Source: Hasllibacter sp. MH4015 (GTDB taxonomy: Bacteria; Pseudomonadota; Alphaproteobacteria; Rhodobacterales; Rhodobacteraceae). From it: a stretch of 64,000 bases of DNA. The notes beneath the pieces are model-generated. The model did no database searches. It saw only the letters and a list, made by a program, of their open reading frames with translations, and was not told the origin of the DNA. The DNA is taken from contig NZ_JAHTBK010000001.1 in NCBI RefSeq assembly GCF_020177575.1, positions 806,001 to 870,000 on the forward strand, written 5' to 3'. A program made the translations under genes and the position numbers. Shown one piece after another: positions 6,977-64,000 of this stretch (its first letter is position 1; the number at the start of each line of letters is the position of its first letter).

Positions 6977-6994
6977 CGTGTTTCGAGCCGCTGA

Positions 6995-8401
6995 TCAGCA
7001 GCTATAGTACATCTTGTATTCCACCGGGTGCGGCGTGTGCTCGTAGGCGTAAACCTCTTCCCACTTGAGCGCGCAGTAACCCTCGATCTGGTCGCGGGTG
7101 AACACGTCGCCCTTCAGCAGGAATTCGTGATCGGCTTCCAGCTCGTCCAGCGCCTCGCGCAGGCTTGCGCAGACGGTCGGGATACCGGCCAGCTCTTCCG
7201 GCGGCAGGTCGTAAAGATCCTTGTCCGACGGATCGCCCGGATTGATCTTGTTCTGGATGCCGTCCAGACCGGCCATCAGCAGGGCCGCGAAGGCGAGGTA
7301 GGGGTTCGCCGCGGGATCGGGGAAGCGTGCCTCCACGCGCTTGGCCTTCGGGCTTTCCGTCCACGGGATACGCACACAGCCGGAGCGGTTGCGGGCGGAG
7401 TACGCGCGCAGAACGGGCGCTTCGAAGCCCGGGATCAGACGCTTGTAGCTGTTCGTCGACGGGTTGGTGAAGGCGTTGAGCGCCTTTGCGTGCTTCAGGA
7501 TGCCACCGATGAACCACAGCGCCTCATCCGACAGATCCGCGTATTTGTCGCCCGCGAAAAGCGGCTTGCCGTCCTTCCAGATCGACATGTTGACGTGCAT
7601 CCCCGTGCCGTTGTCGCCCGCGATGGGCTTGGGCATGAAGGTGGCCGACTTGCCGTAGGCGTGGGCCACGTTGTGGATGACGTACTTGTATTTCTGAAGT
7701 TCGTCGGCCTGTTTCGTCAGGCTGTCGAAGATCAGACCAAGCTCGTGCTGGCACGACGCGACCTCGTGGTGGTGCTTGTCGACCTTCATGCCGATGCGCT
7801 TCATCGTGGACAGCATCTCGGAGCGCAGGTCCTGGCCCGCGTCGATCGGGTTGACCGGGAAATAGCCGCCCTTCACGCCGGGGCGGTGGCCCATATTGCC
7901 CATCTCGTATTCGGTGTCGCCGTTCCACGATGCGTCTTGGGCGTCGATCTCGTAGGAGACCTTGTTGATGTCCACGGAGACGCGCACATCGTCGAACACG
8001 AAGAATTCGGCCTCCGGGCCCATGTAGGCCGCGTCGCCGATGCCGGTGGATTTCAGGTAGGCTTCGGCCTTCTCCGCGGTGCCGCGGGGGTCACGCTCAT
8101 AGGCTTCGCCGGTGTCCGGCTCCACGATGGAGCAGTGCACGCAGATCGTCTTTTCGGCGTAGAAGGGATCGACATAGGCGCTGTCGGTGTCGGGCATCAG
8201 CTTCATGTCGGAGGCTTCGATGCCCTTCCAACCGGCGATGGAGGAGCCGTCGAACATGAACCCTTCTTCAAGGAAGTCCTCGTCGACCTGGTCGGACATG
8301 ACCGTCACGTGCTGGAGTTTGCCGCGCGGGTCGGTGAAACGGATATCGACATATTCCGCTTCTTCGTCCTTCACCATTTTCAAGAAGTCTGCTGTGCTCA
8401 T
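6995..8401 (-). CDS. glnA: Glutamine synthetase type I
   Basis: 468 residues, standard GSI length. Makes glutamine from glutamate, ammonia and ATP; a dodecamer in the cytoplasm and the entry point of nitrogen assimilation. Visible: [14 protein letters not shown] near residue 50, the metal-site [11 protein letters not shown]-type motif (here [10 protein letters not shown]), [10 protein letters not shown], the ATP-binding [14 protein letters not shown], and the [11 protein letters not shown] segment whose Tyr is the adenylylation site. It lies 57 bases downstream of glnB on the same strand; a small GC hairpin (CCCCG/CGGGG) sits between them. Regulation through PII/adenylyltransferase is expected from the family. 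Confidence 0.98.
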
Positions 8402-8458
8402 GTGATCTTCCCTTGAGTTCGAACTTTTGGCCCCGTCGTCCGGGGATTTCGTTGCAGG

Positions 8459-8836
<378 letters not shown>

Positions 8837-52871: not shown

Positions 52872-53552
52872 ATGGCCAAGAAACCCATCCTGACCGATGA
52901 TGAATTGGACGGGGGCATCCCCGGTACGGGCGATGTGCCGCCGCCCCCCCTACCACCCGCGCGTGCGGGGTCTGGCACGGCCACGCGGCCCCTGGATGCT
53001 GCCCCGCCGCCACCGCCCGCGCCGCCTGCCGCGACGCGGCCATTGGATACGCCCGAGCCGCCCGAGGCAGAGCAACCGCCCGCCGTGGCAGAGCCTGCGG
53101 GACGCGATGCATCGGGTCACGCACGCCCCAAGACGCGCATCCATGGATACGGTGGAGCCGCGCGCGATGCCGCGGAGCAGGCCGAGGTAGCCGACGCCCC
53201 GGACGTGCCGCCGGTCGTGGGCTGGTTGGTCGTCACCGAAGGCCCCGGACGCGGCGCGTCCCTGCCGCTGGTCGCGGGCATGAACAGCATCGGGCGGGGT
53301 AAGGAGAACGCCGTGCAGGTGGATTTCGGCGACGCCACGATCAGCCGCGATCCCCACGCTTTCGTCACCTATGACGCAGAGGCGCGGAAATTCCATCTGA
53401 GCCATGGGGGCAAGACCAACATCGTCTACCTCAATGATGCACCGGTTCTGGCCTCCGAGACCTTGGAAAATGGCGCGCAGGTGCGGATCGGGGCGACACA
53501 TCTGCGTTTCGTCGCCTTCTGCGGCCCCGATTTCGATTGGGCGGACGCATGA
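52872..53552 (+). CDS. FHA domain protein
   Basis: 226 residues. A Pro/Ala-rich disordered N-terminus of about 110 residues with repeated ATRPLD motifs precedes a C-terminal FHA domain (NSIGRGKENAVQVDFGDATISRDPHAFVTYD; then NIVYLNDAPV). FHA domains bind phosphothreonine. Key residues R (IGRG), S and (S)R(D) and N are recognisable, though the usual SRxH is SRDPH. First gene of the signalling locus; 218 bases upstream without a gene hold only a weak TATGCT (52747). Overlaps the phosphatase gene (ATGA). Confidence 0.88.
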   Translation: MAKKPILTDDELDGGIPGTGDVPPPPLPPARAGSGTATRPLDAAPPPPPAPPAATRPLDTPEPPEAEQPPAVAEPAGRDASGHARPKTRIHGYGGAARDAAEQAEVADAPDVPPVVGWLVVTEGPGRGASLPLVAGMNSIGRGKENAVQVDFGDATISRDPHAFVTYDAEARKFHLSHGGKTNIVYLNDAPVLASETLENGAQVRIGATHLRFVAFCGPDFDWADA

Positions 53553-56281
53553 AGACGGACGGCACGAGGACGGGCGCGGCCCCGGTCGGATACGACGTGG
53601 CCACGGCGCTCTGGCAGGGCAAACGGCCTTACCAGGAAGACACGCTGCTTGCCGATTTCCACGGCGGCATGGATCGCGGCTTCGCGGTTCTGGCCGACGG
53701 GATGGGCGGACATGCGGCGGGTGATCTGGCCTCTCGGCTTGTGGTGATCGACGCGGTCAGCCACCTGAAATTCCTGATGCACGATGGCGCGGCGCTGGAA
53801 AAGAACCTCCAGGCGGAACTGTCCTCGGCCATCGACACCGCGAACGACGTGCTCAAGGATCGGGGGGCGGAGGATCGTCGCCTGCAAGGTATGGGGGCGA
53901 CGTTCCTGGCCACCGTGATGTTCGAGGATCGGCTCTATTGGGCATCGGTCGGGGACAGTCCGCTTTACCTTTGGCGGGAAGGCGCGCTGAAGCAGCTGAA
54001 CGAAGATCATTCCATGGCGCCGGTCATCGACCAGATGGCCAAATCCGGCGAGATTTCCAAGGAAGAGGCCGCCAACCACCCAGACCGCAACGCGCTGACC
54101 TCCGTCCTGATGGGCCGCGCGGTGAAATCGCGCGACGTGCCGAAGACCGCCATGGTCCTTGACCCCGGTGATGTGCTGATCCAGGCCTCCGACGGGTTGC
54201 AGTATCTGGAAGAAGACCAGATCACGGAGGTCCTGCGCGGGATGAAGGACGGCGCGACGAGCCGTCAGATCGCCGATGCGCTGATGGCCGCGCTGCACAC
54301 GCTCGATGACCCGTCCCAAGACAACACCGCCATTCTGGTCCTGCAACTGACCGAAGGGTTGGACGGCGGCGGTGGCGCGACTGTTGCCGCGGCCTCCGGT
54401 GCCGGTGCGGCGTCCTTCGCTGGCGAACGCGCGGTGGATAGTGGCGGTGCGGCTGCGGGCGCGACCGCCCCCCGTGCCGAAGCGCCAGCGGATGTGGAGC
54501 AACCACCGGGCGGGCGACGATGGCTGATACCGGCGGCCCTTCTCGGCGGGGCGGCACTGGCACTTGGGCTGATTTTCGGCCTGCCGAGCACGCAAGATGA
54601 ACCCAACCTCGCCAACGGCACGCCACCGCCGGGGGACGAGACGGGTATCGCATCTGACGATCCCACTTCTGAACCGGTGGCCGTGGCGGGGGACGACACA
54701 CCCGATTTGCCCGACGATGCCGAAGGCACGGACCTTGCGGATGCTGCGCCCGACCCGGACACGGCGCAAGACAGTGCCACACCCGCGGAGGATGGCGCGG
54801 ACGCGCCCGACCCGGCCCCGGCGGCCGAAGATGATGCCACACCTGCGCAAGAGGTGCCGGCCGAAGACGACATCGCGGCGGAAGACAAGGATGAGAGCGC
54901 GGATGCGGAGATAGAGGCCGCCGACCCGGATACGCCGGATGCGAGCGGTCCCGATGCAACCCCGCCCGGAGAGACCAATCCGGCCGTGGAGGACGAGGCA
55001 GCAAGCGAGGCGGCGCGCGATCCCGAGACGGGGCCCGAGGCCGACACGGCCGGGGCGGAGGCGGAGCCCGCGCCGGAGCAGCCCGCGGACGCGCCCGATC
55101 CCGCAGAGGCCGCAGCGCAAGCGGAAACGGACGAGGACGGCGCGGACAGCGCAGCGAATGCCGGGGACGGCGCGACCGATCCGGGCGAAGATGCGCCCGC
55201 TGACGGCGCAGCACCCGATTTGGCTGAGAATGACGAGGCGGTTCCGCCCGCCGATGTGGACGAAGACGGCGCGGATGTCGCGGCGAATGCGGGCGCCGGT
55301 GCCACCGATCCCGGGGAGGGTGCGCCTGACGATGGCGCTGCGGCGGACGAGGCCGACGCTATCGCCGCACAGCCCCAGTCCGAAGCGCCGGAACGCGACG
55401 CGGAGCCCGCGGCGGAACCCGATGCCGATCTGGCGGAGGTCGAGACTGAAAGTCCGGTCACGGTATCCCCCGCACGGGACGCCGACGATACCGGACGCGG
55501 CGACGGTGCGGACCAAAGCGCGGAGGCAGATCCGATGCCCGTGGCCGACAGCCAGCCCGGCGCGGTGGATGGCGAAGGTGACGCGGCGGCGATCCCGGGG
55601 CCGGAGACAGCACCGGACGCGCCGGAGGCGGAGGTGCCGACGGAAGCCGCCGATCTGCCCGCAGCGGAGCCCGACGCATCCGGCGCTTCGCCTGCCCAGA
55701 CAGAAGTAATCGTGCCGGGTACGGCCACGCCTGCGCCTGCCCCCACTCCCGCACCTGCTCCCGCACCTACGGCACCGCTTAGCCCGGCCCCGCTGCCTGC
55801 GCCCGCACCGCAACCCGCCCCCGCCCTGCCGATGCCGCCCGCCGGTGGTACGCCGTCGCCCGGTCAGGTTGTGCCGATCCCCGGCGTCGGTCCGATCCAG
55901 CGCGAGGGCCTCGATGCCCCGGCCCAGGGCCAGGGGACCACGGCGCCACAGGATGTCGCGCCGCTCTTGCCGCGACAGCCCGCACGCCCCGCCACCCCGG
56001 AGGATGAGGTCAACGTGGTGCCGCGCCAGGGCGGTGATGCCTCGCAAGAGGCGCAATCCTCGACGATCCCCGGCCCCGCGCAGCAGCCGTTCACGGCGCC
56101 CGGGCAAGGCGATGCACCGACGGCGTTGATGCCGCCCTTCGTGCCATCGGGCCAGACCATATGTCAGCGCCGCCATTGCTTCGCCATCGTGATTGGACGC
56201 GACGGACGGCAAAGGCTTGTTGTCCTTCCACCGCGCCAAAGGACCGAAGTGGACAATCCGGCAGCAAGACCGGTTAAATGA
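53549..56281 (+). CDS. PP2C-type Ser/Thr phosphatase with membrane segment and long acidic tail
   Basis: 910 residues. Residues 1-265: PP2C domain with metal-binding QEDTLLADFHGGMDRGFAVLADGMGGHAAGD, ASVGDSPLYLW and QDNTAILVLQL (motifs described by their starts). One membrane segment at about 325-345 (WLIPAALLGGAALALGLIFG). The remaining 560 residues are low-complexity Asp/Ala/Pro/Glu sequence predicted outside the cytoplasm, ending with a basic, cysteine-containing tail (ICQRRHCFAIVIG). It would reverse phosphorylation by the Ser/Thr kinase at the end of the locus. Confidence 0.9.
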   Translation: MKTDGTRTGAAPVGYDVATALWQGKRPYQEDTLLADFHGGMDRGFAVLADGMGGHAAGDLASRLVVIDAVSHLKFLMHDGAALEKNLQAELSSAIDTANDVLKDRGAEDRRLQGMGATFLATVMFEDRLYWASVGDSPLYLWREGALKQLNEDHSMAPVIDQMAKSGEISKEEAANHPDRNALTSVLMGRAVKSRDVPKTAMVLDPGDVLIQASDGLQYLEEDQITEVLRGMKDGATSRQIADALMAALHTLDDPSQDNTAILVLQLTEGLDGGGGATVAAASGAGAASFAGERAVDSGGAAAGATAPRAEAPADVEQPPGGRRWLIPAALLGGAALALGLIFGLPSTQDEPNLANGTPPPGDETGIASDDPTSEPVAVAGDDTPDLPDDAEGTDLADAAPDPDTAQDSATPAEDGADAPDPAPAAEDDATPAQEVPAEDDIAAEDKDESADAEIEAADPDTPDASGPDATPPGETNPAVEDEAASEAARDPETGPEADTAGAEAEPAPEQPADAPDPAEAAAQAETDEDGADSAANAGDGATDPGEDAPADGAAPDLAENDEAVPPADVDEDGADVAANAGAGATDPGEGAPDDGAAADEADAIAAQPQSEAPERDAEPAAEPDADLAEVETESPVTVSPARDADDTGRGDGADQSAEADPMPVADSQPGAVDGEGDAAAIPGPETAPDAPEAEVPTEAADLPAAEPDASGASPAQTEVIVPGTATPAPAPTPAPAPAPTAPLSPAPLPAPAPQPAPALPMPPAGGTPSPGQVVPIPGVGPIQREGLDAPAQGQGTTAPQDVAPLLPRQPARPATPEDEVNVVPRQGGDASQEAQSSTIPGPAQQPFTAPGQGDAPTALMPPFVPSGQTICQRRHCFAIVIGRDGRQRLVVLPPRQRTEVDNPAARPVK

Positions 56282-56341
56282 AGAAAACACCGATGACACG
56301 CACCAGACACGATAAAGACGAATGCAACGGGGACAGATGAC

Positions 56342-57208
56342 ATGAGCGACGATGTGGAGCTTTCGATCCGCGACGCCGGGACCGGGGCCGAGGTGCTGGG
56401 GACCCAGACCCTGCGCCTGCCGGTCGAGATCGGGCGGTTCGGGGCCGACAATGTGGGCCGGATCAGCGCAGGTGACGGCCAGGTTGTTCATTTCGGCGAC
56501 GGGTTCGGGACATTGTCACGCCAGCACCTGACGGTCACGGGCAGCCCGGATGGCGGCCTTGTGGTGACGGATCTGAGCTCGAACGGCGTGACGCAGATCG
56601 GGCAGGCGGGGTCTGCCCCCGTGCCATTGGGGCGCGGCGGAACGGTGCGCATGGCCCCCGGCGCGATGCGGGCTTTCGAGACGGTGGGCCTGCAAATCAC
56701 GCTGTGTTCGCCCAAGGCCGCGCAGGTCGACACGATCGGACAGCCGCTGCATCTGGTCTATGACAGCTCCTCCACCGGGCGGTTGAAGGCGCTGGACCTT
56801 GACGGAGTTTCCATCGCGCTGGTGGCCGGTGGCCCCGACGAAGTGCTGATGCGCCGCCGCAAGGGCAGCGCGCAGGCGGCGATGGACGGCTTGACCGCGG
56901 AAGGGGCAAACTGCCTTGTGACCATCGGCCCCGACGGTGCGGGCGGGATCGTCGCGATTTGCGGGCAGGGGGACGAGGTGTCCCACAACAGACGCATGAT
57001 GGATGCCGGTGAGCGGGCCGAGATGGATCACCTTGCCACGGTGGAAATCCGCGGCCAGCTTCTGCGCATCATGTCCGCGGAGGAGGGCAAGGGGTTGAGC
57101 TGCACGAACACCGAGTGCCGCCAGTTGAACCCCTATCTGCCGGGGGAGAATTGCCGTTATTGCGGGCAGCGTCTGGGGGATGGCACCTCCTACTGGGTAC
57201 ATTCGTAA
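56342..57208 (+). CDS. FHA domain protein with C-terminal zinc ribbon
   Basis: 288 residues. N-terminal FHA domain (IGRFGADNVGRI; GTLSRQHLTV; DLSSNGVTQIG) with the expected Arg, Ser-Arg-x-His and Asn residues. A central alpha/beta region (VVEIRGQLLRIMS part) follows, and the C-terminus has a zinc-ribbon with CTNTEC and CRYC. No membrane segment. Probably an adaptor recognising phosphothreonine on the kinase or its targets. Ends 9 bases before the FHA-flavoprotein gene. Confidence 0.87.
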   Translation: MSDDVELSIRDAGTGAEVLGTQTLRLPVEIGRFGADNVGRISAGDGQVVHFGDGFGTLSRQHLTVTGSPDGGLVVTDLSSNGVTQIGQAGSAPVPLGRGGTVRMAPGAMRAFETVGLQITLCSPKAAQVDTIGQPLHLVYDSSSTGRLKALDLDGVSIALVAGGPDEVLMRRRKGSAQAAMDGLTAEGANCLVTIGPDGAGGIVAICGQGDEVSHNRRMMDAGERAEMDHLATVEIRGQLLRIMSAEEGKGLSCTNTECRQLNPYLPGENCRYCGQRLGDGTSYWVHS

Positions 57209-57217
57209 GAGGCTGTT

Positions 57218-59227
57218 ATGATTACGTTTCCTGTTCGTTTCCGGGTTCGCCAGATCGGCATAGACGGCAATACGATGGGCCCGTCCCGCATCTTGCTGTG
57301 CGAGGAGCCGGGCGCCTTCCTGATCGGCAAGACCGAGGACGCCGACGTACCGCTCACCGGTGACGCGGTCAGCCGCCGCCACATGTCGCTGGTGATGAGC
57401 CACGAGGATGTGCGCGTCCGCGACGAGGGCTCCACCAACGGCACCTATGTCAACGGCACCCGCGTCGATGAACAGGTCCTGGAAATCGGCGACCAGATCT
57501 CCATCCCCGGCTGGTTGCTGGAACTTCTGGCCGCGGCAGAGACGCCCGCCAGCGCCACGCGCATCGCCGGCGTGGAGGTGGATGCGAGCCTAGTGAGCCG
57601 CCTTGTCATTACCGATGACGACGCGCCGCCGCCGTCGCGCCGCAACTTCCCGGACATGGAATTCGACGGCAAGGACGTGGTGGGGATCGAGGCGTTGCGC
57701 GCCTCGGGTCATCCGGTGGAAGAGGTGAAATTCTGCGCCGTGGGCGGTGGGCTAGGTAGCTTCGTCTGGGTCGATCACCTGCGGTGCTACGGTGTCCCGG
57801 CCTCCGACATCCGCGCCATCGGGACGGAGGAGGTCTGCTACCAGACCTACAAGCGATACTGCAAGAACAGCCAGATCCCGGATCACGAGCGGCTCCGCTC
57901 CAATTCCCTCTCGCGGCCTGACAATATCTGGGGTTTCCCGGGTTACGCCTTGCGCGAAGTGGGCAAGGGGATCGGCGTGAAGGGCGTGTTCCAGGTCTTC
58001 GGAGAACCGACCCTGTCGGAAAGCTACACGCCGCGCGCAGGGGATGTGTTCGACAGCCTCGACAAGGAGGCCGTTCGGATCGGCTGGGGCGAGATGCTGG
58101 TCAAGGCGCAGGTACTGGGCGTCCGCAAAACGTCCGACGGGCGCTACGCGGTGGCCTACAAGCTCTGGGGTGGGGAGGCTTCGGGCCAGGAACGCAACCG
58201 GTATCTGATCGCCGACGTGGTGCATCTGTCCACCGGATATCCGGCGACGCGGTTCGTGGACGATTTCCAGACCTTCATCACCAATCACCCCGACAGCCGC
58301 GCGCAGGTCGCGAACGCCTATGAACCCCATGACCAGATGTACGTGGAGGCCGAGCGCAGGGGCGGCCCGGTGCAGGTCGTGGTGCGCGGGCGCGGGATCG
58401 TGGCCAGCCGGATCATCCAGCGCCTGTTCGAGGCGCGTAAGAAAAATCCCCATATCCGCATCCTGCATTCCATGCGGTCGGCCATCGGTCCGCGCGACGG
58501 CGCGGTGTTCCGCAAGGCGCGTCGCTTGGTACGAAATAATGTGGAGATCCAGCCCTTCAACTGGCCCAAGAGCTGTTGGGGTGGGGATCTGCGCGTGGAA
58601 TACGAACGGGCTTCGGATCAGGATCGCGGCGTGATGCTCAACCAGCTGGGCGGCACGACCACCGCCGAACGCTCCGACTGGATCGCGATCGCGGAGCGCG
58701 GTGCGGAGGAGGGGTGGTACAGACCGGTCTACGGCAACATCTCGGACCTGCAACCCATACCGCCCCAGGGGGAGAACCAGCCAGCGGGCGTGCAGGTGGC
58801 CATCGACACACAGGAAGGCAATCGGGAGGAGTTGAACGCCGATTATCTGATCGACTGCACCGGCCTGATTGCCGATATCCGACGCTCTCCCTTCCTGGCC
58901 GACATGCTCGACACCTATCATCTGCCGCGCAACCACGCCTATCGCGAGAAGGGCGGCGCGGTGGAGCAGGGCGGGGCCACGGGCCTGCGCTGTACCAATG
59001 ATTTCGAGATCGAGGGTCTGCGCAACGGCAATGGCCGGGTCTACGCGGCCGGGACGATCACGACGGGCGGGCCGTATCTGGCCGTCGACAGTTTTCTGGG
59101 CCTGCAATACTCGGCGCTCAGATCCGTGGATCACATGGTGACGGAGCGTATTCACAAGGTCCCGAACCTCGGGCCCCTGCGATCCTTCGCCGGGTGGTCG
59201 AAATGGATGGTGGGGGCGCGGCCATGA
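57218..59227 (+). CDS. FHA domain fused to flavoprotein-like oxidoreductase
   Basis: 669 residues. Residues 1-105: FHA domain (FLIGKTEDADVPLTGDAVSRRHMSL, then RDEGSTNGTYVNGTRV), with Ser-Arg-Arg-His and Thr-Asn-Gly all in place. Residues about 155-660: a two-dinucleotide-domain oxidoreductase, with a GGGLGSF Rossmann turn, a second nucleotide motif VVVRGRGIVASRII, LIDCTGLIADIRRS and the C-terminal VYAAGTITTGGPYLAVDS that matches the FAD-terminal motif of flavin monooxygenases. No enzymatic activity can be named. The fusion implies phosphorylation-dependent control of a redox enzyme. Confidence 0.85.
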   Translation: MITFPVRFRVRQIGIDGNTMGPSRILLCEEPGAFLIGKTEDADVPLTGDAVSRRHMSLVMSHEDVRVRDEGSTNGTYVNGTRVDEQVLEIGDQISIPGWLLELLAAAETPASATRIAGVEVDASLVSRLVITDDDAPPPSRRNFPDMEFDGKDVVGIEALRASGHPVEEVKFCAVGGGLGSFVWVDHLRCYGVPASDIRAIGTEEVCYQTYKRYCKNSQIPDHERLRSNSLSRPDNIWGFPGYALREVGKGIGVKGVFQVFGEPTLSESYTPRAGDVFDSLDKEAVRIGWGEMLVKAQVLGVRKTSDGRYAVAYKLWGGEASGQERNRYLIADVVHLSTGYPATRFVDDFQTFITNHPDSRAQVANAYEPHDQMYVEAERRGGPVQVVVRGRGIVASRIIQRLFEARKKNPHIRILHSMRSAIGPRDGAVFRKARRLVRNNVEIQPFNWPKSCWGGDLRVEYERASDQDRGVMLNQLGGTTTAERSDWIAIAERGAEEGWYRPVYGNISDLQPIPPQGENQPAGVQVAIDTQEGNREELNADYLIDCTGLIADIRRSPFLADMLDTYHLPRNHAYREKGGAVEQGGATGLRCTNDFEIEGLRNGNGRVYAAGTITTGGPYLAVDSFLGLQYSALRSVDHMVTERIHKVPNLGPLRSFAGWSKWMVGARP

Positions 59228-59270
59228 ACCTGCAGACCCCGATCCCCATCGCGTTGAAGGAGCCCGCGAC

Positions 59271-59729
59271 ATGATCCCGACACTTGCAGGCCGACTTCAG
59301 ACGCGCATCTTCCTGTTTTTCTTCATCGGATTGCCGATCACGATCCTCTACGGCCTCTACTGGACCGGGTGGCAATGGGATTGGCGGACGATCCAGATCT
59401 TCGTCTGGTTCCTGTGCACGATCACGGCGCTGGGGCTATTCCTCGACCCGCTCTACATCTTCTTGCAATCGACGCGCTGGGACCGCGACTGGCCTTTTGC
59501 CTACCAATTCTTCTTTTCGTGGGTGGAATTCGGCATCGTGTTCTTCGTGGCCCGTGCAGGCTTGCTGCCTTACTTGCCGGAATTCGCGTTCCAGGGCGGG
59601 CGCGGATTGAGCATCGCGGTGCTGCACTTCGCGCTTGTGTTCATCCCGTCCTTCCTGGCGCTGCTTGGACCGTTGCAGGCGATCTTCATCCGCTGGCGCT
59701 TCAAGGGCGGCCAGTTCGGGAAGATGTGA
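59271..59729 (+). CDS. Four-helix membrane protein
   Basis: 152 residues with about four hydrophobic helices and conserved aromatic/acidic loops (DPLYIFLQSTRWDRDWPFAY). No family recognised. Lies between the FHA-flavoprotein and TauE/SafE genes; the next ATG follows its stop directly. May form the membrane partner of the redox protein; this is inference from position. Confidence 0.75.
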   Translation: MIPTLAGRLQTRIFLFFFIGLPITILYGLYWTGWQWDWRTIQIFVWFLCTITALGLFLDPLYIFLQSTRWDRDWPFAYQFFFSWVEFGIVFFVARAGLLPYLPEFAFQGGRGLSIAVLHFALVFIPSFLALLGPLQAIFIRWRFKGGQFGKM

Positions 59730-60686
59730 ATGGCCCATCCGTCCGCGATGAAGCCCGTCATCAAGGCGTGGATTCCGATCCACCTGCTTTTGCTGGCCGG
59801 GGCCTATGCCTGGCTCCTTTGGGAAAGCGCGCTCACGCTGGAGGTCCTGATGGGCCTTTGGTTCTTCTTCCCGGTGGGCATCCTGGGCGCGATCATCGCC
59901 AATGCGACGGGCACGGGCGGCGGCGTCGTCTTCGTGCCGGTCTTCACAGCCTTGCAGGACGGGACCATCATGATCCCGCCGGAGCTGGTGCAGATCGCCA
60001 CGCTGAAGCCCGAGGAATCGGTGGCGGTGTCCTTCACCATCCAATGCTTCGGCATGTCCATCGGGGCGCTGACTTGGGCCTACGCCATTTTCGTCAAGGA
60101 CAGTCTTGCCTGGGACGAGAAGGTATCGTCGCAGACCCTCGCGATGCTGACCTTCACGCCGCTTGCTACCGGCATCCCGGCCCTGTTGCTGACCCAGGCC
60201 TTTGTGGAGGTCGAGGGCGATCAGCTGATCATCTGGTTCAAGTTCTTCTCGCTCGCCCTTGGTGTCACGCTTCTGATCTTCACGTGGCTGCAACGCAGGC
60301 AGGCGGCGAAGGATCGCAAGCTGTGGGTATCACCGGGCGAATTGTGGGTGCTTCTGGGCCTTGGCATTCTAGGCGGGGTCGTGACCGCGCTCTTCTCCGT
60401 GGGGATCGGGGAGTTTCTGGCGATCTACCTGATCCTGCGCCGCTTCCCCACCAAGGTTGCGATTGCCGTGGCCGTCTGGGTCAGCGTGGTCTGCGTGATC
60501 GCGGGGTTCTGGGACGGCTATTTCGGCGGATTGGTGCGGCTGGAGATTGTATTGATCGCTGTGCCGGGCGCGATCGTGGGCGGGTTCCTGGCCAAGGGGA
60601 TCGCGTCACTTCTGGGCTCGCTGTGGCTCAAGACGCTGGCGTCGATCTGGATCATCGCGTCGAGCCTTTACCTGCTTTTGACCTGA
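59730..60686 (+). CDS. TauE/SafE family permease
   Basis: 318 residues with eight or nine membrane segments, and the family repeat seen as ANATGTGGGVVFVPVF and later VTALFSVGIGEFLAIYLILR. Members export or import anions such as sulfite, sulfoacetate or sulfolactate. Ends 3 bases before the convergent kinase gene. Its link to FHA signalling proteins is unusual. Confidence 0.87.
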   Translation: MAHPSAMKPVIKAWIPIHLLLLAGAYAWLLWESALTLEVLMGLWFFFPVGILGAIIANATGTGGGVVFVPVFTALQDGTIMIPPELVQIATLKPEESVAVSFTIQCFGMSIGALTWAYAIFVKDSLAWDEKVSSQTLAMLTFTPLATGIPALLLTQAFVEVEGDQLIIWFKFFSLALGVTLLIFTWLQRRQAAKDRKLWVSPGELWVLLGLGILGGVVTALFSVGIGEFLAIYLILRRFPTKVAIAVAVWVSVVCVIAGFWDGYFGGLVRLEIVLIAVPGAIVGGFLAKGIASLLGSLWLKTLASIWIIASSLYLLLT

Positions 60687-60689
60687 GCT

Positions 60690-63600
60690 TTACGGCGCAG
60701 TGGTCGTGCCGGTCAGGGTGATCAGGGCATCGCAGGTTTCCCCCTCCGGCGCGGCAAGCCAGATGTCGAGCGCGCGCGCCTGGTTGCCGTCATCGGACAG
60801 GGCGACGGACGCGGCGGGGCCGGTGCCGCCCGGCAGATGCCATTCGGTTCCGAAGCGCACGATGGGGACGGGGCCACAGGACCCGGTGGCGCGCACATTC
60901 AGCTCCACCGGGCGCGACGTGTCCTGAATATCGATGGCGATGTCGGGGTTCCGCGTCACGAACAGCGCATTTGTCGCCGATTGCAGGGCCTGCGCGAGGG
61001 CGGGCGCCGTCGCGGCGGCGCAACGCGTCACCTCTTCCCCGCCGCCCGCCTGGACGGAGAAGATGCGTCCGTTTTCCAGCCCGCCCGGCAGGATAGAGAT
61101 GCCGTTGCCCACACGGTCCAGCACCGCGCATCCGGTCAGGTCGGGGGCGGGTGCGACGGGCGCTACGGGTTGCACCGGGACGGGCAAGGTGGCGATCACC
61201 GGCTCGGGCGCGGGCGCGCTGCCCAGACGCCAGATCTCCGCGTCGGGCTCTCCGAGCGTGCCGGTGGCCAGGTGCAGGTTGTCGAAGCTGAAATAGCCTT
61301 CCCGCGCGTCGCCGAAGCTCTGAACCTCCTGTCCGGTCTCGACCTCGATGACCTGCGCCGGGACGGTTCCTATGGCCCCGATGAACAGCATCGACGCATC
61401 CGACGAGATCGACAGGAACGCCCCAGCGCGGCCCGCGCCCAATTCGCCCGAGCCCCGGATCTCACCGGTCAGAAGATCGATGACCTCCCACATGTTGGAG
61501 TTGGCGCGCAGGAAATTCAGCCGATTTCCCGACAGGCGATAGCGGGTGTAGCTGCTGTTGGCGGGAATCTCTGCGGTGGGCGATTGGGTCACTGGATCGT
61601 CCAGCAGACGAACGGTGCCATTGCCGCGCAGAACCATCAGCCCCTGATCGCCGCCGATGGGCGACAGGGCCGCAAAGGGACCGATGCGGTTGGAATTGCT
61701 GCGCGTCAGCCGCCCGTCGGGTTGGAAAAGCTGCAATTGGGTCGGCGTGACGACAAGGATCTGGTTCGATGTCTCGGCAAAGGTGATGCGCACGGCGTCG
61801 CCCTCATCGGCCTCCGTCAGAACCGTGTCGGGCGCGGCGCCGGGATCGGCGGCGGCGCTCAGCGCATCCAGATCGTAGAGCACGACCTCGGTGCGGTTGC
61901 CCGCGCCCGTGCGGGTGAAGATGAAGTATCGCTCATCCTCGCTGATGGCGCGATTGGCGGTCGTGACGGTCGTGGGCTCGAACCGCAGGATCTCGCGCCG
62001 AGTGGGGATATGATAGAGGCGGTTCGGCGCGCCGTCTTCGGTGGTGGCAATCAGGTAGGTGCCGTCACGGGAAAACCCCAGACGTCGGATCGTGTCGGGT
62101 ATGCCACGGGCCAGGTGCGCCTCGTATCCGCCGGTCTCGCGATTGTAGAGCGCGATGCCGCCGGTATCGTCGGCGACGGCAATCCGCTGATTGTCCCAGG
62201 AAAAGCGCGGCAGAAGCGCAAGCGTGCCATTGGGCGACCGCAATGTCGCGTCCTGCACCCAATGGGCGGTTTCCGCGGCCTCCCCCACGCCGGTCAGCGC
62301 CAATGCCTCCTGCGCGCGGGCCAGTGCGGCGCGGAGCGTGTCGTTCTCGGCCTCCAGCTCCTCGATGCGGGTGCGCAGCGTCTCCATCTCGGTGGCGTTG
62401 TCGTCGGAATTGGCGGACATTGTGTCGGCCTCAACCCGCAGGCGATCGCGCTCGGCCTCTGTCGCGGCCAGAACGTCTTCCAACGCGCTCAACTGCTCCT
62501 GCAACGCCTCTGCATCGGTTTCGCCGGCCAGCGCCTGTTGCAATTGCTCCTCCAGTGACATCGCCCGCGCATTGGCGGACGCAAGGGCGGCCTCCGTCAC
62601 CGTCAGGTCGGCTTCGATCTCGCGCAATTGGGCGGCTTGGGTCCGCGCCTCTTCCAATGCGCCGGTGGTCTGGGACAGGCGCAGCTCCAGCGCGCGGATC
62701 TGTTCGGTGGCCGCGTCGCGGGCAGCTTCCAGCGCGCCGATGCGTTCGTCGTCCGCCACGCCCTCGGCGACCAGTTCCGCCGCGCGCGCCTCTGCCGCGT
62801 TGCGTTCGGCCTGCGCGGCTTCCAGCGCGGCTTGGGTTTCGGCAAGGGTGGTCAGGTCCTCCTCCAACCCCGCGATACGGTCGGCGGCGGTATCGCGGGC
62901 GGCGCGGGCAGCGTCCAGTTCGGCCATCGTGGCGGCCATGTCGCCGTCCATCTCCTCCAGTCGGGCAAGCTCCGCCTCGGCCGCATTCAGCTCGGCCTGC
63001 AAGCCTTCCAGCTCTGCCGTGGCGGCTTCGCGCGCGGCCTCGGCCTCCGCCAGACTGCTTTCCAGAAGGCTCATCCGCTCCATCATCGCGCCCATGTCGG
63101 GGGTGAGCCAAGGCGGCTGCGTGGCCCAGATCGCGCCGCCCGCGCCGGCGATCAGTAGTGCGCCGACCAGAAGGCCGGGGACAAAGCGGCTGCGGCCTCG
63201 CGCGGTTCCTTCCGCCGGTGCCGCCACGGCGGGTTGCACCAGCGTCGTTGGCGCATCGGCCAACGCGCTCAGCCATGCCGCCGCGTTTTCGGGGCGGTCG
63301 TCGGGGGCCATGCGCAGGGCGCGGTCGATCAGGGTCAGAAGGCGCGCATCGTGTTCCTCGTACCGCCCGGCGATGGGGACGTAGGGGTCGGGCTGACCGG
63401 TGGCCAGCGCGCTGGCGCGTTCGTCGGCGGCCACGGGCGCGGCACCGGTGATGACATGATGCAAGGTCGCGGCCAGCGCGTAGAGGTCCGAATGGGGACC
63501 CTGCGCCGCGCCGGTAACGTAGAATTCGTGGGGCGAATAGCCGTCGGTCACGACCCGGAACGTCCCCGCCATCCTCGACCGCGCCTGGGTTTCCGCCCGG

Positions 63601-64000
63601 GCCGCCCCGAAATCAATGAGCATCGGCATCCCGAAACGGTCGATGCGGATATTCTGGGGTTTGATATCGCGGTGCAGGACGCCCTGGCCGTGGACGTAGT
63701 CGAGTGCGCCTAGAAGATCGCGGGCCAGTTCCAGCACACGGGCGGGGGCAAGACCGGCGTCAGAGCCCACGATCTCCTCGTGCAGGTCGCGGCCATGGAT
63801 GAAATCCATCGCCATATAGGCGGTGCCGTTCTCCTCGAACAGCGTCTGGACATGGACCACGTTGGGATGGCGCAGGCGGGCCAGCATCCGCGCCTCGCGC
63901 AGGAATTGCGCGCGCGCCGTCTCGAAATGCTCGGACGTCCCGGCGGAGGTTGCGCTGACCGTGTGGGTCATCGCGGCGCGTTGGGCAAGGCCGAGGGGGA
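60690..64000 (-). CDS. Ser/Thr protein kinase with coiled coil and beta-propeller (cut by right edge)
   Basis: At least 1,102 residues visible; the frame is open to the right edge, so the Gly-rich loop and beta-3 Lys lie outside. Kinase core: RHPNVVHVQTLFEE, catalytic HRDIKPQN, DFGAAR, and GYSPHEFYV in the activation segment. Then a membrane segment (LLVGALLIAGAGGAIWA), about 250 residues of Glu/Ala-rich coiled coil, and an extracytoplasmic region of WD40-like repeats (LLPRFSWDNQRIAVADDTGGIALYN, then LGFSRDGTYLIATTED). Ends with a cysteine-containing domain. Convergent with TauE/SafE; partner of the PP2C and FHA proteins. Confidence 0.9.
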   Translation of the reverse strand, partial: PLGLAQRAAMTHTVSATSAGTSEHFETARAQFLREARMLARLRHPNVVHVQTLFEENGTAYMAMDFIHGRDLHEEIVGSDAGLAPARVLELARDLLGALDYVHGQGVLHRDIKPQNIRIDRFGMPMLIDFGAARAETQARSRMAGTFRVVTDGYSPHEFYVTGAAQGPHSDLYALAATLHHVITGAAPVAADERASALATGQPDPYVPIAGRYEEHDARLLTLIDRALRMAPDDRPENAAAWLSALADAPTTLVQPAVAAPAEGTARGRSRFVPGLLVGALLIAGAGGAIWATQPPWLTPDMGAMMERMSLLESSLAEAEAAREAATAELEGLQAELNAAEAELARLEEMDGDMAATMAELDAARAARDTAADRIAGLEEDLTTLAETQAALEAAQAERNAAEARAAELVAEGVADDERIGALEAARDAATEQIRALELRLSQTTGALEEARTQAAQLREIEADLTVTEAALASANARAMSLEEQLQQALAGETDAEALQEQLSALEDVLAATEAERDRLRVEADTMSANSDDNATEMETLRTRIEELEAENDTLRAALARAQEALALTGVGEAAETAHWVQDATLRSPNGTLALLPRFSWDNQRIAVADDTGGIALYNRETGGYEAHLARGIPDTIRRLGFSRDGTYLIATTEDGAPNRLYHIPTRREILRFEPTTVTTANRAISEDERYFIFTRTGAGNRTEVVLYDLDALSAAADPGAAPDTVLTEADEGDAVRITFAETSNQILVVTPTQLQLFQPDGRLTRSNSNRIGPFAALSPIGGDQGLMVLRGNGTVRLLDDPVTQSPTAEIPANSSYTRYRLSGNRLNFLRANSNMWEVIDLLTGEIRGSGELGAGRAGAFLSISSDASMLFIGAIGTVPAQVIEVETGQEVQSFGDAREGYFSFDNLHLATGTLGEPDAEIWRLGSAPAPEPVIATLPVPVQPVAPVAPAPDLTGCAVLDRVGNGISILPGGLENGRIFSVQAGGGEEVTRCAAATAPALAQALQSATNALFVTRNPDIAIDIQDTSRPVELNVRATGSCGPVPIVRFGTEWHLPGGTGPAASVALSDDGNQARALDIWLAAPEGETCDALITLTGTTTAP

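Follow-up and report, generated by a model that had tools for sequence, protein, structure and literature searches.

A flavoprotein and its constant membrane partner in a candidate phosphothreonine signalling locus of Hasllibacter sp. MH4015

Organization of the locus

The right-hand part of a 64,000-nucleotide stretch of Hasllibacter sp. MH4015 DNA (contig NZ_JAHTBK010000001.1, positions 806,001 to 870,000; the whole stretch is hereafter termed the window) carries a set of signalling genes around a putative flavoprotein, here called FLAV, and a small membrane protein, here called TM. An earlier note on this DNA, made from its letters, had described a PP2C phosphatase, three FHA proteins, two membrane proteins and a convergent Ser/Thr kinase, and all of these were recovered on the strands it gave, with the kinase cut by the window edge. 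Follow-up analysis identified TM as the constant partner of FLAV and makes it probable that the locus encodes an NAD(P)H flavoenzyme that is docked at the membrane, gated by phosphothreonine and combined with exchangeable transporters. The features are as follows.

52872-53552, plus strand: FHA1, an FHA-domain protein of 226 amino acids (aa) with a low-complexity N-terminus (PF00498, E=1.4e-6)
53549-56281, plus strand: PP2C phosphatase with one hydrophobic segment and a long acidic Pro/Ala tail (PF13672, E=1.7e-10)
56342-57208, plus strand: FHA2, an FHA domain with a C-terminal zinc-ribbon-like motif (PF00498 at 15.9 bits, under the cut-off of 20.7)
57218-59227, plus strand: FLAV, an N-terminal FHA domain (aa 35-96; PF00498, E=1.3e-14) followed by a flavoprotein domain (aa ~153-669)
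57743-57760, plus strand: FAD-type motif GxGxGS of FLAV, aa 176-181 (conservation in 54 sequences)
58388-58411, plus strand: NAD(P)-type motif GRGIVASR of FLAV, aa 391-398 (conservation in 54 sequences)
59271-59729, plus strand: TM, a four-helix membrane protein of 152 aa (AF2 model with a mean predicted local distance difference test score, pLDDT, of 89.7)
59730-60686, plus strand: TauE/SafE permease (PF01925, E=4e-16; 59.8 bits against a gathering score of 32.6)
60690-64000, minus strand: C-terminal part of a transmembrane Ser/Thr kinase that the window edge interrupts (PF00069, E=4.9e-31)

The kinase is convergent to the TauE/SafE gene and ends 3 bases past it. Its complete gene (L002:9191-12847) runs beyond the right edge of the window, where the ATP-binding lobe (GGFGITY, VAVKE) lies past position 64000; the apparent ATG at 63971 is internal, and a motif check of the whole gene found GGFGITY, VAVKE, HRDIKPQN and DFG. 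Past its membrane segment the kinase has a coiled coil and a beta-propeller-like region, the latter from weak matches under the cut-offs. The phosphatase has its metal-binding motifs, DGMGG, GDS, SDG and QDN, and matches NF033484 (Stp1 PP2C) at E=1.2e-42, under that model's cut-off. At the C-terminus of FHA2, a CxxxxC...CxxC pattern was read from the sequence.

Strict pairing of FLAV and TM

Searches of Pfam and NCBIfam gave no convincing match for either the FLAV or the TM family. The invariant residues of TM are G7, R8, R12, G55, W70, D73, W74, E86 and R143, and in addition all 67 aligned rows have Thr or Ser at residue 11 and 63 of the 67 have Thr at residue 4. FLAV (E <= 1e-30) and TM (E <= 1e-6) were each found in 41 of 244 genomes of the cyanobacterial phylum, or about one sampled cyanobacterial genome in six, and the two genome lists, compared by eye, are identical. 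Both occur in the same five of 246 genomes of the actinobacterial phylum and, among 240 alphaproteobacterial genomes, in the window genome only. The pair is therefore present in 47 of 730 sampled genomes, none of which was found to have only FLAV or only TM, with the caveat that scoring covered at most six (FLAV) or 16 (TM) first-look candidates per genome, such that a lone copy could be missed. The chance probability of the overlap is near 10^-46.8 in Cyanobacteria and 10^-9.9 in Actinobacteria, values that overstate the evidence on account of genome kinship. A separate check recovered TM in 15 of 15 genomes, 12 of them cyanobacterial genomes whose FLAV locus had shown no TM.

Linkage does not explain this pairing, because eight of the 42 cyanobacterial pairs lie apart, the other 34 being within about 9 kb. 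Four of the separated pairs (in G724, G781 and G823, and one pair of G830) are 0.5-3.2 Mb apart on one contig, in linear coordinates, and four are on different contigs (G642, G813, G851 and G853). G830, the only genome of the cyanobacterial sample with two FLAV genes, also has two TM genes. FLAV and TM adjoin in all three of the Chloroflexota loci. TM, and not the permease, is the constant partner of FLAV, and pairing this strict predicts that flav and tm deletions would have like phenotypes. A second case of paired duplication, with two FLAV and two TM genes, was seen in Pseudanabaenaceae LEGE 13415 (L061, L062).

Transporters beside the pair

Neighbouring genes were counted over 80 loci in five groups, with near defined as within 6 kb of FLAV (about 827 kb of DNA) and farther out comprising about 451 kb. 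For the transporters, a further cyanobacterial set of 20 loci was counted beside the set of 30, the two having one locus in common (L166 = L063). TauE lies near FLAV in 12 of 23 alphaproteobacterial loci; the cyanobacterial (0/30 and 0/20) and actinobacterial (0/24) loci have none within that distance. Na+/H+-exchanger-type antiporters (PF00999-type, E < 1e-20; here called CPA2) are near FLAV in 18 of 24 actinobacterial loci, one of 23 alphaproteobacterial loci, and two of 30 and three of 20 cyanobacterial loci, and none was found farther out. TauE/SafE is thus an accessory, and the transporter type varies between groups. The earlier note had placed a redox enzyme and a permease at the centre of the locus; the flavoprotein keeps that place, whereas the permease yields it to TM, with antiporters replacing TauE elsewhere. 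A sulfur-compound role, also raised in the note, is not supported, in view of this distribution and of a genus genome, G004, that keeps FLAV and TM without a TauE match.

Antiporters also adjoin cyanobacterial TM genes that are distant from FLAV, in five of eight loci of one set of such TM genes and two of 11 of another, in which several contigs are short. All seven are confirmed by Pfam in the member itself or in a relative 90% alike (L188 via L187), and five weak matches among them proved to be PF00999 at E 4.7e-45 or better. Their C-termini vary: USP is found in L063 and L187, TrkA_N/TrkA_C in L190, L191, L196 and L204 (these four having one common convergent order), and neither in the second L187 gene or in L189. 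In L028, a metagenome-assembled genome of Tepidamorphaceae, the antiporter gene (6986-8650, plus strand) ends in an FHA domain (E 1.1e-7) and adjoins FHA1, FHA2, FLAV and TM, making it the sole direct fusion of a signalling domain to a transporter that was seen. By analogy with KefF and KefC, these arrangements suggest a repeated association of FLAV-TM with ion transport, a minority pattern in Cyanobacteria.

It is conceivable that the likeness extends to function, with FLAV and TM forming an adaptor that senses redox state and gates the ion transporter next to it (an Na+/H+-exchanger-type antiporter, or TauE in Rhodobacterales), as KefF acts on KefC, and that is tuned by phosphothreonine signalling. 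The exclusively close placement of antiporters around FLAV, their presence beside lone TM genes and the FHA domain of the L028 antiporter all favour such a role; however, most cyanobacterial loci have no antiporter nearby, the seven lone-TM cases reduce to three arrangements (L187/L188, L190/L196 and L191/L204 being 90-93% alike in DNA), TauE is missing from G004, and the predicted fold of FLAV appears to differ from that of KefF, which is flavodoxin-like. Gating of this kind is possible, and on balance we lean against it. According to PMC10224563, KefF is a quinone reductase that is needed for full KefC activity.

Fold and motifs of the flavoprotein

The flavin part of the window FLAV has no Pfam or NCBIfam match, Pfam seeing only the FHA domain, and its identity rests on sequence motifs and a predicted fold. 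That fold is of the class B monooxygenase/YpdA type, with matches to SidA, PvdA and YpdA, and the top Foldseek matches are ornithine N-hydroxylases. Identity is 9-15% in the ten best VIA rows. Alignment of 54 FLAV sequences gave 45 invariant positions. In the flavin adenine dinucleotide (FAD) motif, G176, G178, G180 and S181 are present in 54/54; the motif reads GxGxGS, with the two leading glycines of GxGxxG in place and S181 where its third would stand. In the NAD(P) motif (GxGxxxS), G391 and G393 are found in 54/54 and S397 in 51/54, the third-glycine position being A396 in 50/54 and G in 3/54. An ATGY-type motif (G340 and Y341 in 54/54, A338 in 41, T339 in 27) precedes the NAD(P) motif rather than being C-terminal, and a second motif, D-x-T-G-L, is C-terminal. 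No conserved Cys pair was found among the 54 sequences. The motif that identifies flavin-containing monooxygenases, FxGxxxHxxxY/F, is incomplete in FLAV: its F position is V in 40/54 and F in 4/54, and its G position is A in 50 and G in 4. The remaining positions are kept, as H371 (54/54) and Y375 (52/54). In PMC9960948 the motif is printed as FxGxxHxxY/F.

Family models gave little. The window protein matches none of the class B models (PF13434 and others), and among the 54 members one weakly matches PF13434 Lys/Orn oxygenase (E 0.021), three match PF12831, five match PF04820 Trp_halogenase (best E 1.2e-4) and one weakly matches TIGR04439 histamine N-monooxygenase (E 0.0092). Taken together, the motifs and the structural model suggest that FLAV is a flavoprotein that uses FAD and NAD(P)H and has the class B monooxygenase/YpdA fold. 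A metabolic monooxygenase, N- or S-hydroxylating a small molecule or lipid held by TM, with export of the product by TauE/SafE and an FHA domain that only tethers, would accord with the ornithine N-hydroxylases heading the structural matches and with the single PF13434 and TIGR04439 hits; we nevertheless judge it rather unlikely.

Links to phosphothreonine signalling

To our knowledge, few direct enzymatic outputs of bacterial Hanks-kinase/FHA signalling are known, and an FHA domain fused to a flavoenzyme would offer one that is directly testable. Of 81 aligned FLAV rows, in which the window protein is counted twice, 58 include the FHA domain, and within these 58 the phosphothreonine-binding residues are largely kept: G in 58, R/K in 56, S in 56, H in 57, N in 53 and G in 50. 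The window FLAV has K in place of R in the GR motif. These residues (GR, SxxH, NG) are those given for FHA domains in PMC1262709. Separate FHA genes lie near FLAV in 64 of the 80 loci and farther out in two, kinases near in 36 and farther in six, and PP2C genes near in 15 and farther in one. PP2C and kinase genes are common in Rhodobacterales (PP2C in 9/11 loci, kinase in 10/11), as are kinases in actinobacterial loci (19 of 24); in the other alphaproteobacterial loci, PP2C was found in four of 12 and a kinase in three of 12.

The patchiness of kinase and PP2C adjacency outside Rhodobacterales could be taken to mean that FLAV-TM is a constitutive, housekeeping redox pair and that its kinase, PP2C and FHA neighbours have no functional relation to it. 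Against this stand the fusion of FHA to FLAV with a conserved phosphothreonine pocket and the concentration of separate FHA genes near FLAV, and we consider such a coincidence quite improbable. The earlier reading of a stand-alone phosphothreonine circuit around a flavoprotein was borne out, the kinase, PP2C and FHA proteins occurring without a type VI secretion system (T6SS) sheath gene. The sheath family PF05943 (VipB), the only T6SS family searched, gave 0/1 in the window genome with a positive E. coli control. The note had also cautioned that secretion genes might lie just past the right edge; no secretion gene was seen by eye among the open reading frames (ORFs) of the next 20 kb, to contig position 890000.

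Conservation in the genus and beyond

FLAV was found in 13 of 13 genus genomes, and the order FHA1-PP2C-FHA2-FLAV-TM-TauE-kinase in 11 of the 13 (the window genome and 12 relatives), counting G008, in which the kinase runs off a 9.4-kb contig. The full order is not visible in G003, on a 9.3-kb contig beginning at FHA2. G004 keeps FHA1, FHA2, FLAV and TM, its PP2C is split over two ORFs, and it has no TauE match (E <= 1e-20) and, at the site, no kinase of the window type, a KIN2-type kinase following instead. Because G004 keeps this core without either, TauE and the window-type kinase seem dispensable for keeping it.

The note had raised the concern that the genes might co-occur only in this strain, and they do co-occur outside it. 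A scan of a collection of 84,980 species gave 213 stretches encoding relatives, and 79 loci were kept; FLAV relatives occur in Alphaproteobacteria, Cyanobacteria, Chloroflexota and Actinobacteria. At 16 alphaproteobacterial loci outside the window genus, some on short contigs, FHA2 occurs at all 16, as does TM by phmmer (15 by clustering), and clustering gave FHA1 at 10, PP2C at eight, a kinase at six and TauE at five. Twelve of the 16 also have a member of a further cluster, made up of FHA proteins that carry a second domain; this is vWA in the two members tested (L025, L033) and an antiporter in L028. The genes that recur beside FLAV in actinobacterial loci encode TM, the Na+/H+-exchanger-type antiporter, a small kinase and an FHA protein that bears a zinc-ribbon-like motif.

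The tree of the 54 FLAV sequences groups the large classes, with one change for Alphaproteobacteria (support 100), one for Cyanophyceae (support 97) and two for Actinomycetes. Because these classes cluster, the tree suggests an old family with many losses and not a recent spread. The note had also entertained a defence module, and Hanks kinases do occur in defence systems, yet an anti-phage or other defence role is most improbable: the PADLOC models PD-T4-6 and mad6 match both kinases, but only in the kinase region, with no match in any of the six other proteins tested (eight scanned), FLAV is present in all 13 genus genomes, and the locus holds one place in the genus, with two upstream neighbours constant in all ten relatives' regions that reach them and a tree that follows class, unlike that of a mobile defence island.

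As side observations on one cyanobacterial set (L166-L185, L063), genes named by eye as endonuclease-V-like lie within 6 kb of FLAV in 12 of 20 loci, and GDSL-lipase-like genes lie near it in seven of 20.

The right flank

To the right of the kinase lie a dual-specificity-type phosphatase, a second kinase and an ORF judged by eye to be trigger factor. The first of these (L002:12798-13448, plus strand), dual-specificity/tyrosine-phosphatase-like and placed between the two kinases, overlaps the longest 5' reading of the first kinase by ~50 bases. The second kinase (L002:13461-15911, minus strand) has a C-terminal Cys-containing domain (CDTTLLVN-like) in common with several proteins encoded about 4-12 kb downstream (L003:2-1288, L003:1449-1910 and L003:4967-5890), which appear to be secreted and some of which bear repeats, a possible envelope-protein family with the sensor domain of that kinase. 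About 19 kb right of the window, an ORF judged by eye to be a terminase large subunit (L003:11471-12600, plus strand) may mark where a prophage or gene-transfer-agent cluster begins.

A model for the locus

The reading of FLAV-TM as a phosphothreonine-gated, membrane-docked flavoenzyme builds on computed gene content, conservation, FLAV-TM pairing and predicted fold class, and on the kept FHA pocket and catalytic motifs; to these we add, by inference, the docking, cofactor, substrate, direction of regulation and transporter role. The core would be a two-protein redox unit, with cytosolic, FAD/NAD(P)H-dependent FLAV most likely docked at the conserved cytosolic face of four-helix TM. FLAV would oxidise NAD(P)H, and electrons or an oxygen atom would go from it to an acceptor or substrate associated with the membrane. 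With the part that lies beyond the membrane, the transmembrane kinase may sense a signal in the envelope, and it may then phosphorylate threonines on itself or its partners. FLAV, through its FHA domain, and the separate FHA/zinc-ribbon protein would bind the phosphothreonine and thereby assemble or activate the unit, and PP2C would reset it. The transporter (TauE/SafE here, an Na+/H+-exchanger-type antiporter elsewhere) could serve as an exchangeable accessory and possibly as the effector. In a more specific and speculative version, to which we give little credence, FLAV-TM would be an ancient, phosphothreonine-gated redox adaptor for different transporters: the kinase would phosphorylate the cytosolic N-terminus of TM, a target proposed because of the Thr or Ser at residue 11 and the near-constant Thr at residue 4, the FHA domain of FLAV would dock there, and NAD(P)H-dependent flavin chemistry at the membrane would drive or gate an Na+/H+-exchanger-type antiporter (FHA-fused in L028) or a TauE-type permease.

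Several findings weigh against the gated-flavoenzyme model, in addition to the candidate limit noted for the pairing. The structural model is poorer over one conserved stretch of FLAV (aa ~221-270, pLDDT 55-75), and 21 of 24 actinobacterial FLAV proteins were scored as being without an FHA domain. In the cyanobacterial loci, PP2C is near FLAV in one of 30 and a kinase in four of 30; because neither is a constant neighbour, the gene for the cognate kinase may lie elsewhere, or the link may be loose. FLAV is also rare in Alphaproteobacteria: among 394 sampled genomes of the family three have it, two belonging to the window genus, and among 240 genomes of the class one has it, that of the window.

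Comparison with known systems

No description of such a system was found in the titles and abstract openings of open-licence papers. The class B flavin and N-hydroxylating monooxygenases (SidA, PvdA, KtzI) and the YpdA/thioredoxin-reductase-like flavoproteins with two dinucleotide domains share with FLAV the predicted fold, the order of FAD and NAD(P) motifs and the 'TG' linker motifs; FLAV differs in its N-terminal FHA domain, its constant membrane partner, its lack of a conserved Cys pair and its 9-15% identity. GarA/OdhI-PknG is a metabolic switch in which an FHA protein controls metabolism, and chains of GarA/OdhI rank among the top PDB matches for FLAV's FHA portion, although here the domain is fused to an enzyme and is not a separate inhibitor. 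The threonine phosphorylation pathway of the T6SS (PpkA-PppA-Fha/TagH) likewise combines a kinase, PP2C and FHA set, whereas the window genome is without the sheath gene PF05943 and the FHA partner is a flavoprotein. The kinase/PP2C/vWA triads of conflict systems (TerY-P type) resemble the vWA-FHA proteins, PP2C and kinases of other alphaproteobacterial FLAV loci; these loci differ in having a flavoprotein core, and those inspected showed no recognisable GTPase, MoxR or Ter component. PMC7159879 describes a kinase, PP2C and vWA as a linked set. An antiporter is absent from the window locus and, among 23 alphaproteobacterial loci, is present only in L028, and KefF is not among the listed fold matches of FLAV. 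The KefF-KefC and KefG-KefB systems are nonetheless alike in associating an NAD(P)H flavoprotein with a cation:proton antiporter (PMC10224563), from which the present system is distinguished by a flavoprotein of apparently another predicted fold, a separate four-helix membrane protein, FHA domains and an antiporter that is optional.
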